From positions 1 through 20,138 of the IMG/VR virus record IMGVR_UViG_3300042485_004773: a stretch of 20,138 bases of DNA; one strand, given 5' to 3'. Positions 2,934-19,827 of this stretch are shown here, piece by piece. The DNA comes from a virus. The translations under genes were made by a program, and so were the position numbers. The notes below the pieces were generated by a model. The model saw only the letters and a program-made list of their open reading frames with translations, searched no databases and had not been told where the DNA came from. The stretch's first letter is position 1, and every line of letters starts with the position of its first letter.

Positions 2934-3010
2934 CGGGGAATAGCTCAGCCTGGTAGAGCACTGTCTTCGGGAGGCAGGGGCCGGAGGTTCGAATCCTCTT
3001 TCCCCGACCA
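2934..3010 (+). tRNA. tRNA-Pro (anticodon CGG)
   Basis: A 77-nt cloverleaf. The acceptor stem CGGGGAA pairs with TTCCCCG; the first pair C1-G72 is the bacterial tRNA-Pro signature. The D arm is GCTC-AGCCTGGTAGA-GCAC. The anticodon stem CTGTC/GGCAG holds the loop TTCGGGA, so the anticodon is CGG, reading CCG, with G37. The T arm contains GGTTCGAATCC. The discriminator is A and CCA is encoded. An integrase follows 7 bp downstream, so the tRNA 3' half is the likely phage integration site and has been left intact by the insertion. Confidence 0.97.
2970..3010 (+). other. Probable attachment site (att core in tRNA-Pro 3' half)
   Basis: Tyrosine integrases commonly use the 3' half of a tRNA gene as attB. 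Here the integrase gene ends 7 bp past the CCA and points toward the tRNA. The exact core cannot be set because the duplicated copy at the other prophage end lies outside the window. No second copy of the tRNA 3' end was seen within it. Confidence 0.6.
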
Positions 3011-3016
3011 CATTTA

Positions 3017-4327
3017 TTAAGCATTTCGTCCTCCATGGATGATTTTAAGTCCGGTGATGCTCCGGCGAAAGGCGCCGGGAGCCTTCACCTCAATCTCGTC
3101 GATAATCTGCTCTGTCACGGCCAGGGCATTGGTCAGGTAACCCGCCTCGAACGCCGCATAGATGTCGGACGTTTTCGAGTGGACCCGGTGGCCCAGCATC
3201 ATTTGCCCTTCCACCCAAAGCGCCTCGCCCAGACGGCTACGCGCGAGCTTCGCGATCGATCGGCGGATCAGCTTCTGCCCGGTCTCGCCGTCGCGCGGCA
3301 GGCGCAGTTCATCCTGCATTCCCTCGAACGCCGTGCGAATCGATAGCGGCCCGACATAGAATCCTACGGGCGCCGCCTTGAGGTGCTCGACCAGCTGGTG
3401 AGCCACGGGCACGACCGGGCGGTATTTCTTCGTCTGCGGCCGGCCGCGCTGGTTGAGCGCGAGGGCGCGGATGTCGGGATACCATTGCCGGCGCTCGGGA
3501 TCGGTCGACACATCATAAGCAGCGTCCGGCCGGCACCAGGTCGCGACGCTCACGCGCAGGAAGCGCAGCAGTGCCTCCCGGTAGGCAAGCTGGCGATCAT
3601 AGGCCTTGTCGCTCATGCCGGCGGCGCGTGGCGGCCGGAGGCAATAGTTGAACATCTCGGCCAGCTTGGCGATGTCGGCGCGATATGCCGGCGTCTCGCT
3701 CACCTCGTCGGGCTTCTTCGCCTGGAAGGCTGCGGCATAGGGCGTATCGCCCCGGCCGTTGGCGTGGTTGATCGCGGCGCTCAGCGCGCGGACCGACCCT
3801 TCGACGGTGCCGGCGGTGCGATCACCCAGCACCTTGCCCGCGCTCGACACGACCGGCACCTCGAAAGCCCAGTCCCGGAAATCGTCGATCCACTCCTCGT
3901 TGACCTGGTCGCAGGTGGTATCCAGCCGCTCGGTCTCGATCAGATAATTCGACACATGGGCCAGCCGCGCCTTGATCGACGTCAGCGACGGCTTCTTGCG
4001 GACCGAGATCAGATAGTTGGACATGGCATCGACCAGCGGATGCGGCGGCGCGCCGACGACGAGCTGGCCGCAGGCCGCGCAGATCAGCTGCCCGCGCTCG
4101 CGTTCTACGTAGAGGGCGTCGAGCCGTTCCTCGGCTTTCCCGACATCCGCTGTGCCCGTCGATCGCGACCGGACGCGTCGGCGCTCGACGTCGTACCAGA
4201 AGATGTAGAGATGGGGGGAGCGGAGCGAGCCGTCCGACCGGCGGTCCCATCCGAGCCAGTATTTTGGTCGCCCGAGGCTGGTTGTCCCCCTGGTATAGAG
4301 CGGCTCTTCATGGTGCGGGTCAGGCAT
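3017..4327 (-). CDS. int: Tyrosine-type site-specific integrase
   Basis: A 436-residue tyrosine recombinase that should join phage and host att sites. The N-terminus (1-90) has the arm-binding-like pattern LYIFWYDVERRRVRSRSTG plus a CAAC cysteine pair. A SAM-like core-binding part (about 95-200) follows. The catalytic part shows Arg266 (WCRPDA), Lys300/301 (TKKYRPVVP), Arg355 or 356, His380 (MLGHRVHSKTSDIY) and the nucleophile Tyr390. The usual first His of the H-x-x-R box appears to be Lys352 (KLIRR). The gene is the last of the leftward operon and ends beside tRNA-Pro. Its 5' end overlaps the preceding gene by about 220 nt in another frame, and GAGAG lies just upstream of the ATG. Expression from the leftward promoter links integrase to the repressor. 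Confidence 0.92.
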   Translation of the reverse strand: MPDPHHEEPLYTRGTTSLGRPKYWLGWDRRSDGSLRSPHLYIFWYDVERRRVRSRSTGTADVGKAEERLDALYVERERGQLICAACGQLVVGAPPHPLVDAMSNYLISVRKKPSLTSIKARLAHVSNYLIETERLDTTCDQVNEEWIDDFRDWAFEVPVVSSAGKVLGDRTAGTVEGSVRALSAAINHANGRGDTPYAAAFQAKKPDEVSETPAYRADIAKLAEMFNYCLRPPRAAGMSDKAYDRQLAYREALLRFLRVSVATWCRPDAAYDVSTDPERRQWYPDIRALALNQRGRPQTKKYRPVVPVAHQLVEHLKAAPVGFYVGPLSIRTAFEGMQDELRLPRDGETGQKLIRRSIAKLARSRLGEALWVEGQMMLGHRVHSKTSDIYAAFEAGYLTNALAVTEQIIDEIEVKAPGAFRRSITGLKIIHGGRNA

Positions 4328-9849: not shown

Positions 9850-9896
9850 TCATCTTTTGTTCACCCATCGTTCCATTTTTGTACAGCGGGGACCAC

Positions 9897-10460
9897 ATGT
9901 CTGAGGGCAGCATCGCAGCGGACCAGCTTCGTCTTCTGATCGAGCGCATCGAGCGGCTGGAGGAAGAGAAGAAGGGGATCAGCGACGACATCAAGGACGT
10001 CTATCTGGAAGCCAAGGCGACCAGCTACGACCCGAAGATCATGCGCCAGATCATCCGCCTGCGCAAAATGCAGCCGCACGACCGTCAGGAAATGCAGGCG
10101 GTGCTGGAAACCTATCTCTCCGCGCTCGGCATGGAAGACGGCCCCGGCTGCCAGCCGGACATGTATGAAGGCCATGACGGCCGGCCCGAACCGAGCAAGC
10201 CCGCCCCTGCCCCGACGGCAGACGATGCGGAACGCTTCACGGCGGCGCTGAGCCTAGTGGTGGATCATCAGAACGCGTCCGCCTCGTGGCTGCAGCGTCA
10301 GATGCGCATCGGCTATAACAGCGCGCAGCGGCTGATCGAAGAACTGGAGCGCAAGGGCGTGGTGGGTCCGCCCAACCATATCGGCAAGCGCGACGTGCTG
10401 ATCCCGGCCGGTGGACAGGCGCAGGCGGCATTGCAGGCCATGCACGAGGCGGCTGGCTGA
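9897..10460 (+). CDS. GapR (DUF2312) domain fused to an FtsK gamma-like winged helix
   Basis: 187 residues. Residues 8-79 match GapR/DUF2312: [20 protein letters not shown], then [13 protein letters not shown], then [10 protein letters not shown] and a helix ending YLSALGM. GapR binds overtwisted DNA ahead of moving polymerases and works with gyrase and topoisomerase IV in Caulobacter. After a linker (about 80-108), residues 109-170 match the FtsK gamma domain: [17 protein letters not shown], then [20 protein letters not shown], then [20 protein letters not shown]. In FtsK this winged helix reads KOPS sequences and contacts XerD. The fusion is unusual. It is the second early gene after the Cro-like gene and overlaps the methyltransferase start by 1 nt (TGATG). 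GGGGA lies 5 nt before the ATG. A role in phage DNA topology or replication is inferred. Confidence 0.88.
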
Positions 10461-11164: not shown

Positions 11165-11344
11165 TCCCAGTTACCCCCTTTCGGCATGCAGCCCGGACGC
11201 CGCGTCGGCCCGGGTGGAAACAAGGCCACGATGTCCCGCCGGCTGGTTCGTACTCCCAGCCGGCAGGGGCCAAGCGGTTCGATCTGGGGGCAAGGCTACT
11301 GCCGTAAATCGTGGTCACCGACGCACATTTTTGAGGAGATCATC
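11165..11344. other. Leader region with a 9-bp hairpin
   Basis: This is the longest non-coding stretch of the rightward early region (180 bp). It contains GCCGGCTGG (11238-11246), a 9-nt loop and CCAGCCGGC (11256-11264), a perfect 9-bp stem. No T-run follows, so it is not a standard terminator. No convincing promoter was found. It ends in GAGGAG before the next gene. Confidence 0.5.
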
Positions 11345-11581
11345 ATGTCTGAGATTCACCCGGCACCGGCCGAGTTCTCGTCCGACCAGATCGGCGCCGA
11401 CCCAATCCTGCGCTACTTCCATTATTCCCACCTGCCGCCCGTCCTGCAGGGCGCATCGCGGCCGTTCTGCGATCTCGCCCGCCACATCGTGGAAACGCTG
11501 CCGCGCAATCCCGAGCGCACCGTCGCGCTGCGCAAGCTGCTGGAAGCCAAGGACGCGGCTGTCCGCGCCAACGTCAACTGA
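11345..11581 (+). CDS. Small helical protein resembling Acb2/Tad1-type hairpins
   Basis: 78 residues. After a short leader, residues 19-75 read DPILRYFHYSHLPPVLQGAS, then RPFCDLARHIVETLPRN, then PERTVALRKLLEAKDAAVRA. The pattern is F-x-Y, then PP, a first helix, a loop P-R-N-x-ER, then a second helix ALRKLLEAKDAAVRA. It follows the layout I recall for the Acb2/Tad1 hairpin family, which has F-x-Y-x-PP, helix, CPDSREKSLAL and EEAVMWAN. Acb2 proteins form oligomers that sequester cyclic nucleotides made by CBASS defence. The match is by pattern, not alignment. GAGGAG lies 7 nt before the ATG. It is expressed in the early region with a methyltransferase, a fitting place for a counter-defence protein. 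The gene is certain; the function is tentative. Confidence 0.85.
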   Translation: MSEIHPAPAEFSSDQIGADPILRYFHYSHLPPVLQGASRPFCDLARHIVETLPRNPERTVALRKLLEAKDAAVRANVN

Positions 11582-11969: not shown

Positions 11970-12416
11970 ATGTCGCGCATGACGCCGCGCGCCCGGCTGG
12001 AGCAGCGCCTGATCGCCGAGGGCAAGCTGGCTCCGCGCGACACGAAGACGCCTGCCCCGCTCAAGGGCAAGGATCGCCTGTTCGCGCTGGGCCGCCTGAA
12101 GACGGGCGAGAAGAACAAGTCAGAGCAGCGCTTCGAAGACGAGATCCTGCGCCCCGGCATGATGGCAGGCGATATCCTCTGGTACCGCTTCGAGGGCATC
12201 AAGCTGCGCCTGGCCGATAACACCTTCCTGACCGTTGATTTCGCGGTCATGGGTGCCAACAGCATCATCACGATGATCGACGTCAAGGGCAGCGAAGCCG
12301 TCATCCAGGAAGACGCGCGCGTGAAGATGAAGGTCGCCGCCGAAGCCTATCCCTTCCGGTTCCAGTTCGCGTTCCCCGGCAAGGCCGGCTGGACCTATGA
12401 GGATGTTGGGGCATGA
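11970..12416 (+). CDS. DUF1064-type, PD-(D/E)XK nuclease-like protein
   Basis: 148 residues from the ATG at 11970, with GGAG 9 nt upstream; an in-frame ATG at 11925 would extend it by 15 residues without a ribosome site. The core reads NKSEQRFEDEILRPGMMAGD, then YRFEGIKLRL, then FLTVDFAVM, then ITMIDVKGSEAV and later VKMKVAAEAYPFRFQF. Asp90 (VDF) and Asp104-x-Lys106 (IDVKG), preceded by acidic residues near 55-58, fit a PD-(D/E)XK nuclease site. Related phage proteins are thought to act on replication or recombination intermediates. It couples to the replication initiator by an ATGA overlap, which supports a replication role. Confidence 0.82.
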   Translation: MSRMTPRARLEQRLIAEGKLAPRDTKTPAPLKGKDRLFALGRLKTGEKNKSEQRFEDEILRPGMMAGDILWYRFEGIKLRLADNTFLTVDFAVMGANSIITMIDVKGSEAVIQEDARVKMKVAAEAYPFRFQFAFPGKAGWTYEDVGA

Positions 12417-13471
12417 GCTGGGAGGCTGAGAACTGGGCGCGCCAGCAGCGCACCGGCGACCCCGTCACCAAGGCGGTGCTGGTCGGCATCGCGAACTGGA
12501 TGAACCCCAAGGGCGACGAGTGCCAGGTGTCGATGCGCCGGCTTGCGGACGAGGTCGAAATCTCGGTCCGCACCGCGCAGCGCCATGTCCAGCGCCTCGC
12601 AGAGCTGGGCTTTATCGTGAAGTCCGACGCGGTGCGCAGTGACGGCGGACAGGGCTGGAACAGCTTCAAATTCCCCGGCTACAAGCCGCCCCGCGTCAGC
12701 CATGTTGAACCGCCTGCGAAGGTCGATAACCCCCATGACAATTTGACAGGGGGGGAGGGTGACAAATTGACACCCCCCCATGACAAATTGACACCCTCCC
12801 CCGCGACAGATTGTCATGGGGAGGGTGACACAGCTGTGTCAGGGGAAGGATCTGATAAGGATAATAATATCCCCCCTATAGCCCCCCAGGGGGCAAAAGA
12901 CCCTGCCGAGAAGCGAAATCGGGGAAGTCGGATTCCGGCGGACTGGAAACCGCCAGCGCTCACCGACCTCCCGCCTGCTGCCATGGCCAAGGCTCGCCAA
13001 TGGCCTGCCGGCGCCTACGAGGCCGAGGCAGAAGCGTTTCTGAACTTCTGGCTGGCTGAGGCGAGCGGCCGCGCCTGCAAGCTCGACTGGGACAAGGCCT
13101 GGTGTACCTGGATCAACCGATCGACGGGGCAAATCCTGCGCGATGCCCGCTCCGGCGTCCAGCACAGCGCGCCGTCGTCCACGCCCCGCCCTGCCCTGCC
13201 TGCCAAGGCCCACGATACCAGCCGTGAGAACGGCGCGGCGGCGAAGATCCGCACGCTGGTCAAAGCGAAGATCGGCGATCAGCAATATGACCGCTGGGTC
13301 GCGCCGTCCCGGCTCGACATCGATGCCGGCACGATGACGGCCGTGGCGGTCAGCAGCTTCGCCAGCAATTATCTGCGCGACAATTTCGCCAACGACCTGG
13401 CGCAGGCGATGCACGCGGTGCTCGGCCCCGACGCCGAACTGCGCTTCGCCAATGAACAGCCACCGGCGTGA
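12413..13471 (+). CDS. Phage replication initiator: winged helix plus DnaA-N-like domain
   Basis: 352 residues. Residues 15-90 form a replication-type winged helix: VTKAVLVGIANWMNPKGDEC, then QVSMRRLADEVEISVRTAQRH, then VQRLAELGFIVK. Residues 105-145 are a repetitive linker (HDNLT, DKLTPPHDKLTPSP) encoded by the iterons. Residues 175-235 carry the DWKPP ... FLNFWLAEASGRACKLDW ... WINR pattern common to phage replication proteins. The C-terminus (275-340) resembles DnaA domain I or its relatives in replication proteins: AAKIRTLVKAKIGDQQYDRW, then LDIDAGTMTAVAVSSFASNY and LRDNFANDLAQAM. It would bind the intragenic origin and recruit host helicase machinery. The start has an ATGA overlap with the nuclease-like gene. 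Confidence 0.87.
   Translation: MSWEAENWARQQRTGDPVTKAVLVGIANWMNPKGDECQVSMRRLADEVEISVRTAQRHVQRLAELGFIVKSDAVRSDGGQGWNSFKFPGYKPPRVSHVEPPAKVDNPHDNLTGGEGDKLTPPHDKLTPSPATDCHGEGDTAVSGEGSDKDNNIPPIAPQGAKDPAEKRNRGSRIPADWKPPALTDLPPAAMAKARQWPAGAYEAEAEAFLNFWLAEASGRACKLDWDKAWCTWINRSTGQILRDARSGVQHSAPSSTPRPALPAKAHDTSRENGAAAKIRTLVKAKIGDQQYDRWVAPSRLDIDAGTMTAVAVSSFASNYLRDNFANDLAQAMHAVLGPDAELRFANEQPPA
12736..12816 (+). repeat. Iterons of a probable phage origin
   Basis: Direct 13-bp repeats: TGACAATTTGACA (12736-12748), TGACAAATTGACA (12760-12772), the same again (12781-12793), and a degenerate CGACAGATTGTCA (12804-12816, 10 of 13). The start-to-start steps are 24, 21 and 23 bp, about two helical turns. G- and C-runs separate them. 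They lie inside the initiator gene, as in lambda O. Confidence 0.8.
12826..12841. repeat. 16-bp perfect palindrome beside the iterons
   Basis: TGACACAGCTGTGTCA reads the same on both strands. It starts with the same TGACA element as the iterons, so it may be an inverted initiator site. Confidence 0.7.
12845..12882. other. A+T-rich patch, candidate unwinding element
   Basis: A stretch with GATAAGGATAATAATAT and CTATAG directly follows the iterons and palindrome. It is markedly A+T-rich for this G+C-rich region, and G- and C-runs bound it. It could be the DNA unwinding element of the origin. Confidence 0.5.
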
Positions 13472-17977: not shown

Positions 17978-18172
17978 ATTTGCACATCCACCCCCGACGT
18001 TCCGACCGTCCCGGAGCGCCAGTCCGTGCAGCTGCCCGACGAGGGCGCTGATCCCGTAGCCGATCGCGATGCGCGTCGTCGGCGCCGCGCAACCATCGCT
18101 GGCATGATGACCAGCCCCTCCGGTGCGCTGGGTTCCGCCAACACATCGGCGACCTCGGGCACGCTCGGCTGA
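17978..18172 (+). CDS. Small Cys-initial virion-region protein with ATT start
   Basis: 64 residues if translation starts at ATT 17978. GGGAG lies exactly 7 nt upstream (17966-17970). In frame, a stop at 17930 closes the region and no ATG, GTG or TTG precedes the conserved part. The product is (M)CTSTPDVPTVPERQSVQL, then PDEGADPVADRDARRRRRAT, then SPSGALGSANTSATSGTLG. This matches a small protein usually found before podovirus connectors: initial Cys, Pro-rich start, an Arg-run helix and a Gly/Ser/Thr-rich end in TLG. The stop overlaps the connector start (TGATG), the usual coupling. Its role in the virion is not known. Confidence 0.75.
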   Translation: MCTSTPDVPTVPERQSVQLPDEGADPVADRDARRRRRATIAGMMTSPSGALGSANTSATSGTLG

Positions 18173-19827
18173 TGGCGTCGATCCGCCAGGATTGCGAGAC
18201 GCGCCTGATCGGCATGAAGGCGATCCGCTCCGACTATGAGGCGGAGTGGAAGGAAATCGCGCGCTTCTGCCAGCCGGCTCGCTCGCGATTCCTGAACGGC
18301 GACACCAACAAGACGGCGCGGCGCGCGCGCAACGCCCGGCTCTACGACGAATATGCGATCGGCAGCTACCGCACGCTTGCCAATGGCATGACGTCGGGCC
18401 TGTCCTCGCCATCGCGCCCCTGGAAGAAGCTCTCCACCTACGACGACGCGCTGCTCGATGAGCCGGAGGTGCGCTTCTGGCTGTCCGAGGTTGATCGGCT
18501 GATGGACGCCTTCTTCGCGCGCACCAACTTCTACGGCGCGGCAAAGACCGGCTACCATGAACTCGGCCTGTTCGGCACCGAAGCCTGCGTCATGATGGAG
18601 CATCGCGACGTCGGCATGGTCTGCCACCCGCTGACGGCCGGCGAATATTGGATTTCCATGTCCGACGCGATGGTCGCGGACACGCTCTATCGCCGGTGCC
18701 CCATGACCGCGCGCCAAGCGGTGCAGTCGTTCGGCAAGGAACGGGTCAGTACCACCGTCCGCAATGCCTATCACCGGTCGAACCATGAGGATCTGGTCAA
18801 TGTGTTCCAGGCGATCGAGCCCAACCCGCAATGGCGGCCGGGCGATCCCTTCTCTCACCGGTTCCGCTCCATCTATTGGGACGAGAATGATCAGGCGGAC
18901 CGCGTCCTGCGCATCTCCGGCCATCACGACCAGCCCTTCTATGCGCCCCGCTGGGATCTGACTGGCTCCGACGCCTATGGCTATTCCCCGGCGATGGAGG
19001 GCCTCGCCTCGATCCGCGAGCTGCAGATGCAGAACAAGCGCGAGAACGAGGCGATCGACGGCATCGTGAAGCCGGAGAAGGTCGTCAAGCCCGGCCTCAA
19101 GCTCACCGGCCAGCCCGGCAACATCGTCTCGGCCGCCGACGTCGACAAGGATGCGGTAATGGTGCCGTACGAGATGCCCTGGCAGGCGCTGGAACAGATC
19201 TCGAACAAGATCGGCCGGCTCTATCAGCGCATCGACGCTACCTCCTACGCCGACCTGTTTATGGCGATCACCAACATGCAGGGCATCCAGCCCCGCAACA
19301 TCGAGGAGATCGCGGCGCGCAACGAGGAGAAGCTGACCCAGCTCGGCCCGACGATCGAGCGCGTCAACAATGAGAAGCTCGCTGTCGCCATCGACCGCGT
19401 GTTCGGGATCATGATGCGCGGCAATATGCTGCCGCCGCTGCCCGAGGCGATGCAGGGGCAGAGCGAGATCAAGGTCGAGTTCGTCTCGATCCTCACCCAG
19501 ATGCAGCGCATGGTCGGCCTGGGCCAGATCGAGCGCACCGCGTCCTTCGTCGGTAACCTCGCCGGCGCGTTCCCCGAAGCGGCGGACAAGCTCAACACCG
19601 ACGAGATGATCGACGAATATGCCGATCGCGCCGGCACGCCGCCCAAGCTGATCCGCACCGCCGAAGAGGTTGCCAAGCTCCGCCAGCAGCGCGCGCAGCA
19701 GCAGAACCAGCAGCGCATGGCCGAGATGATGCCAGCCGTGCAGCAGGGCGCCGACGCCGCACGCCTCCTGTCCGAAACCGACGTCAACGGCACGCCGATG
19801 CTGGGCACGCTCCTGGGGGCGGGATGA
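18172..19827 (+). CDS. Podovirus head-to-tail connector (portal) protein
   Basis: 551 residues. It matches the podovirus connector family: an N-terminal helix RSDYEAEWKEIARFCQPARS, then LYDEYAIGSYRTLANGMTSG and LSSPSRPWKKL, later YGYSPAMEGLASIRELQMQN, and PEKVVKPGLKLTGQPG. The tail is Gln-rich (QQRAQQQNQQRMAEMM), as in related proteins. It forms the dodecameric ring at the prohead vertex through which DNA is packaged and to which the tail attaches. The start overlaps the preceding stop (TGATG) and the end overlaps the next gene (ATGA). The length is normal. Confidence 0.94.
   Translation: MASIRQDCETRLIGMKAIRSDYEAEWKEIARFCQPARSRFLNGDTNKTARRARNARLYDEYAIGSYRTLANGMTSGLSSPSRPWKKLSTYDDALLDEPEVRFWLSEVDRLMDAFFARTNFYGAAKTGYHELGLFGTEACVMMEHRDVGMVCHPLTAGEYWISMSDAMVADTLYRRCPMTARQAVQSFGKERVSTTVRNAYHRSNHEDLVNVFQAIEPNPQWRPGDPFSHRFRSIYWDENDQADRVLRISGHHDQPFYAPRWDLTGSDAYGYSPAMEGLASIRELQMQNKRENEAIDGIVKPEKVVKPGLKLTGQPGNIVSAADVDKDAVMVPYEMPWQALEQISNKIGRLYQRIDATSYADLFMAITNMQGIQPRNIEEIAARNEEKLTQLGPTIERVNNEKLAVAIDRVFGIMMRGNMLPPLPEAMQGQSEIKVEFVSILTQMQRMVGLGQIERTASFVGNLAGAFPEAADKLNTDEMIDEYADRAGTPPKLIRTAEEVAKLRQQRAQQQNQQRMAEMMPAVQQGADAARLLSETDVNGTPMLGTLLGAG

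Follow-up and report, generated by a model that had tools for sequence, protein, structure and literature searches.

The window that we analysed, a 20,138-base virus record without an attached host genome, carries a provirus. An integrase open reading frame, called from its sequence (3017-4327), abuts a tRNA-Pro (CGG) gene (2934-3010), and this part of the window (2934-4327) is a likely attachment site. Further along the window lie genes for a GapR/FtsK-gamma protein (9876-10460), an N6_N4 DNA methylase (PF01555; 10460..11164, plus strand), a DnaA_N/HTH replication protein (12413-13471), and a head-tail connector (18172-19827). Between the methylase and the replication protein, a single plus-strand open reading frame (11345..11581) encodes a protein of 78 amino acids followed by TGA, which we call P0001 (MSEIHPAPAEFSSDQIGADPILRYFHYSHLPPVLQGASRPFCDLARHIVETLPRNPERTVALRKLLEAKDAAVRANVN), a member of the PHROG 1761/5120 family that we propose to be a divergent Acb2-type hairpin protein. 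A Shine-Dalgarno sequence, GAGGAG (11333..11338, plus strand), stands 6 nt before the ATG and is present in most close relatives. Comparison with nine such relatives reveals changes that are chiefly synonymous and at third codon positions (11 synonymous versus 2 nonsynonymous codons against L005, and 36 versus 7 against L009); the gene is real, and purifying selection acts on it.

An earlier note on this DNA, made from the sequence alone, had read the protein as a candidate cyclic-nucleotide sponge of the Acb2/Tad1 hairpin kind from an F-x-Y, PP, and P-R-N-x-ER layout. The elements are all there (F25-H26-Y27, with codons at 11417..11425 on the plus strand; P31-P32; and P53-R54-N55-P56-E57-R58), and position 27 is aromatic in all family members, but the second proline of the PP pair is only 38% conserved. 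The second long helix with its flank, E57-A75 (11513..11569, plus strand), bears the signature ER-TVALRKLLEAKDAAVRA. The same note took the adjacent methyltransferase as an argument for counter-defence. The neighbouring N6_N4 methylase is indeed present, but a P0001-family gene lies nearby in only 4/69 loci with related methylases; we rejected the methylase as a marker of a linked counter-defence module and, because the linkage is not conserved, left it out of the P0001 system.

A family gene occupies this place in four phages with a closely related terminase and is absent from three others (L471, L473, and L475), and the P0001 gene is accessory. Close relatives were checked for an Acb2-type gene in its stead at this site, and none was found; L473 has a Phage_gp49_66 protein there.

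A candidate RNA leader upstream of P0001

Directly before the P0001 start codon and after the methylase lies a conserved structured RNA leader of 178 nt (11167..11344, plus strand), which is kept in sphingomonad proviruses even where the preceding gene differs (L007/L472), and in L473, where the following gene differs. Its consensus fold has 36 pairs with 96.5% of cells paired, and five pairs have changed on both sides versus 1.7 expected (0/500 shuffles; 0-1 in slid versions). The single-sequence fold is unexceptional (z -1.2), a search of Rfam returned no match, and a covariance model places the leader at this locus only, once per genome in two Sphingobium genomes. Since eight related sequences are few, we treat the leader as a lead rather than a demonstration. 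In the predicted outer helix (helix 1), a conserved CCTT near the 5' end of the leader pairs with the GAGG of the Shine-Dalgarno sequence, and this helix would close over the ribosome-binding signal of P0001.

Spread and conservation of the P0001 family

P0001 matches PHROG 1761 (2.4e-28) and PHROG 5120 (4.8e-17), neither of which has an assigned function, and the literature that we searched yielded no paper on PHROG 1761 or PHROG 1454. Relatives were retrieved by tblastn in 327 phage records, from phages of Vibrio, Erwinia, Acinetobacter, Gordonia, Brevibacterium, Ruegeria, Mycobacterium, and other hosts, and in at least 578 IMG/VR stretches. They also occur in 65 loci of the species collection, ranging from Sphingobium and Novosphingobium to Streptomyces, Leptolyngbya, and MAGs labelled Planctomycetaceae or Acidobacteria. 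Because relatives are found in phages of many phyla (Proteobacteria, Actinobacteria, Cyanobacteria, and others), the family is not sphingomonad-specific, and the earlier note, which had confined it to sphingomonad phages, drew its scope too narrowly. A close relative of an enterobacterial family member is present in five E. coli chromosomes, where it is annotated "hypothetical protein." Among 156 distinct members, eight residues are 100% conserved: F25, H29, L30, S38, K64, E67, K69, and R74.

Some members carry additional sequence. C-terminal extensions in L017, L049, L058, L064, L071, L231, and L234 end in an acidic motif with P-x-x-F or P-F (e.g., DIDRDGPVPFSD), and we take these acidic tails to resemble SSB-type C-terminal tails. 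In Ochrobactrum phage vB_OspP_OH (L002:765-1130), an N-terminal DnaJ/anti-TRAP-like zinc-finger stretch is fused to the family domain. Separately, an open reading frame with an Acb2-like second helix (AAAKLEELFFWIRAGMARG) stands directly upstream of a family member at L076:3675-3986, as well as in L078 and L220; the L076 frame has no match in Pfam or PHROG.

Kinship with Acb2 hairpin proteins

Searches with P0001 of Pfam, NCBIfam, and, as a single sequence, the PDB gave no usable match, and in Pfam P0001 does not match PF24729 (Acb2_Tad1_hairpin; gathering cut-off 27 bits). Among the sub-threshold Pfam matches of 36 relatives, PF24729 is nevertheless the commonest (7/36 members, best E 0.0024); Occludin_ELL is matched by 4 (best 0.0052), and HEAT_2 at 0.019. 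Taken alone, these sub-threshold matches are the weaker support for Acb2 kinship, and both the silence of Pfam at threshold and the comparable weakness of the other helical models would suit a short helical hairpin that resembles Acb2 only as a small two-helix protein, with no homology between them. T4 Vs.4 and a REKS-type protein from Paenibacillus phage Bob pass PF24729 (7e-20 and 2e-27, respectively), the REKS type being close to PDB 9ptq, "Acb2 homolog 43." The search leading to 9ptq started from a REKS sequence that we took as a lead only.

Comparison of profiles argues strongly against such a chance resemblance. Using 159 P0001-family and 77 PF24729-type sequences, hhalign aligned the two groups over 37 columns with 91.7% probability (E 7.7e-7); a first comparison with shallow alignments had reached only 9%. 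Reversed profiles, a control that preserves helix periodicity, gave 0.2-0.3%; among 50 column shuffles the highest value was 3.9%. Retrieval was specific in both directions. A profile built from PF24729-type proteins only, run over 30,922 open reading frames, recovered 238 of 243 P0001-family members (best E 1.6e-5), the best of which outrank every decoy and T4 Vs.4; the first scores outside the family are 0.11 (L295, itself a PF24729 Acb2) and 0.13-0.15 (T4/T2 Vs.4); the copy in the window has E 1.0. In the opposite direction, the P0001-family profile returned 47 matches outside the family, all 47 in Acb2-type loci. PHROG 1454, which holds the REKS or PF24729-type proteins, is matched by P0001 at 0.011 and by its relatives at 2e-5 to 2e-4. 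The family profile also matched phage Gp22 (PDB 8jaj) weakly (E 0.009), which we judged to be chance. The F-x-Y and both long helices fall into register with one four-residue loop gap, in a global alignment on which the F-x-Y match depends, the strong local match covering the two helices only. Homology of the P0001 family to PF24729-type Acb2 is well supported by these results, and we regard an unrelated hairpin as very improbable. In the tree, the P0001 family stands on one side of a long branch (support 100/97), and our preferred reading is that it forms a separate sister clade within the Acb2 hairpin superfamily, outside PF24729 as defined.

The AF2 model of P0001 (pLDDT 91.6) has helices at 13-18, 20-25, 32-51, and 56-74, and that of a PF24729 control protein has helices at 4-9, 19-40, and 45-67, with the F-x-Y at the end of the short helix in both. 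The modelled P0001 protomer has the same layout as that of Acb2: two long helices preceded by a short helical part at the N terminus. Foldseek against the PDB returned no Acb2 chain for the P0001 model, and likewise none for the bona fide PF24729 model run through the same pipeline; this negative, which an unrelated hairpin would also produce, carries no weight because the positive control is itself unmatched. Its neighbours in BFVD outside the family include many entries named Acb2/Tad1 hairpin, with weak E-values of 0.7 and above.

The kinship with Acb2/Tad1 proposed in the earlier note is borne out, for Acb2 and the hairpin domain, by profile-profile comparison, specific retrieval, PHROG cross-matches, and AF2 secondary structure, but the N-terminal part of Tad1 is absent from P0001. 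The note named the lack of a profile or fold match as one sign against its idea, and this is only half the case: Pfam is silent at threshold but the profile-profile comparison is not, and Foldseek is silent in the PDB but is so for its control as well.

Proposed function and comparison with known systems

Acb2 is a phage protein that sequesters the immune signals of bacteria. T4 Vs.4 forms a hexamer holding three cGAMP molecules (PMC10097602): its Y8 and F82 provide the base stacking, polar contacts come from Y8, H11, K23, and R79, and the hexamer interface is lined by L29, A66, A73, and A77 (PMC10097602); Panoptes activation is lost in T4 Acb2 F82C and Y8A (PMC12657218). In the profile alignments, T4 Y8 corresponds to Y27 (aromatic in 100%) and R79 to the invariant R74. 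At the interface, L29 corresponds to L44 (L in 90%), A66 to A61 (A/G in 97%), A73 to A68 (A/S/G), and A77 to A72, which is partly kept (A 54%, L 31%). The contact residues K23 and F82 fall on S38 and V77 and are not kept in the family, and H11 falls in a gapped region with the invariant H29 close by. T68 and W76 of T4, which are T52 and W60 of the REKS type, align with R63 (97%) and A71 (A 77%, C 21%), so that neither Thr nor Trp is kept, and K64, E67, K69, and D70 are charged residues newly invariant in the P0001 family.

Since its sequence and predicted fold mark it as a distant cousin of Acb2, P0001 is probably a counter-defence sponge. We consider it reasonably likely that P0001, as part of a divergent sister clade of the Acb2 superfamily (PHROG 1761/5120), works much as Acb2 does; its hexamer, its binding of nucleotides, and its role in counter-defence are what we infer. 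Small residues on the second long helix would join the small helical protomers into an oligomer, which in Acb2 is a hexamer, and pockets between protomers would hold an anionic cyclic-nucleotide immune signal, so that the effector is not activated. In such a pocket, base stacking would fall to the aromatic Y27 and phosphate contact to the invariant R74. That R63, K69-D70, and A71 stand in place of the Acb2-invariant Thr and Trp points to a ligand range unlike that of T4 or PaMx33 Acb2, and the family is probably a nucleotide sponge with altered specificity. Several points count against this reading: for a protein in an arms race the second helix is extremely conserved, the family lies below every curated threshold, the contact residues K23 and F82 are lost, and T68 and W76 are replaced.

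The genomic surroundings of the family bear on the same question. In annotated phages, its gene is found upstream of the terminase, between Rz and the small terminase, after minor tail genes, between the minor and major capsid genes, before the portal, and after the holin, and with structural or lysis genes so often around it, it may have a late role that is not sponging. The L295 provirus carries a PF24729 Acb2 (1e-15, PHROG 717) about 0.6 kb from a P0001-family member (L295:1637-1879 and L295:2501-2677), and since both are present in one provirus, the two may differ in job. As to CBASS in the hosts, a SMODS nucleotidyltransferase domain scores above cut-off in 7/35 carrier genomes, including Sphingobium and Sphingopyxis, which shows only opportunity (hosts able to make signals) and not enrichment.

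Such settings, together with the loss of the Thr, Trp, and K23/F82 equivalents in favour of new invariant charges, the occasional zinc-finger fusion, and the acidic proline-phenylalanine tails, would also fit a protein that has kept the ancestry and protomer fold of Acb2 and lost the sponge role, serving in late operons as a small oligomeric adaptor or regulator that binds, for example, a host or phage protein. We think this unlikely, if a serious contender: Y27 and R74 are retained, a strongly conserved second helix is also seen in known PF24729 families, and a variable genome position suits a mobile counter-defence gene. Returning to the sponge, a bolder form of it, in which the family is a very large separate clade of nucleotide-signal sponges with a pocket changed for a signal outside the range of known Acb2s, and with a sphingomonad leader gating its translation, is a tentative proposal to which we give rather little credence. 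If the family shares the function of Acb2, phages would sequester second messengers far more widely than is now recognised, and an altered pocket that is invariant would hint at a signal that deserves to be sought. Kinship with Acb2 makes a family without assigned function directly testable in existing CBASS, Thoeris, and Panoptes assays.

Among known systems, Tad1, an anti-Thoeris and anti-CBASS sponge, has an N-terminal antiparallel beta-sheet part (PMC12043709) and resembles P0001 in its two C-terminal helices only, whereas P0001, at 78 amino acids, is predicted to be all-helical, with no strand in the AF2 model. T4 Acb2 (Vs.4) and PaMx33-type Acb2 (p26), both of PHROG 717, share with the P0001 family the equivalents of Y8 and R79, small residues at the equivalents of L29, A66, and A73, and the K69-x-x-E72-A73 pattern; the long inter-helix loop of T4 is missing from P0001, the equivalents of K23 and F82 are lost, and other residues stand in for T68 and W76. 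From the REKS-type proteins of PF24729 and PHROG 1454 (9ptq), the P0001 family differs in having R63 and A71 for the invariant T52 and W60, in a loop after the F-x-Y that is four residues shorter, and in forming a separate clade below the Pfam cut-off. With these same proteins it shares its size, the short N-terminal helix, the F-x-Y, the two long helices, and a common register, P-x-x-x-E-[KR]-[ST]-x-A-x-x-x-L-x-x-A.
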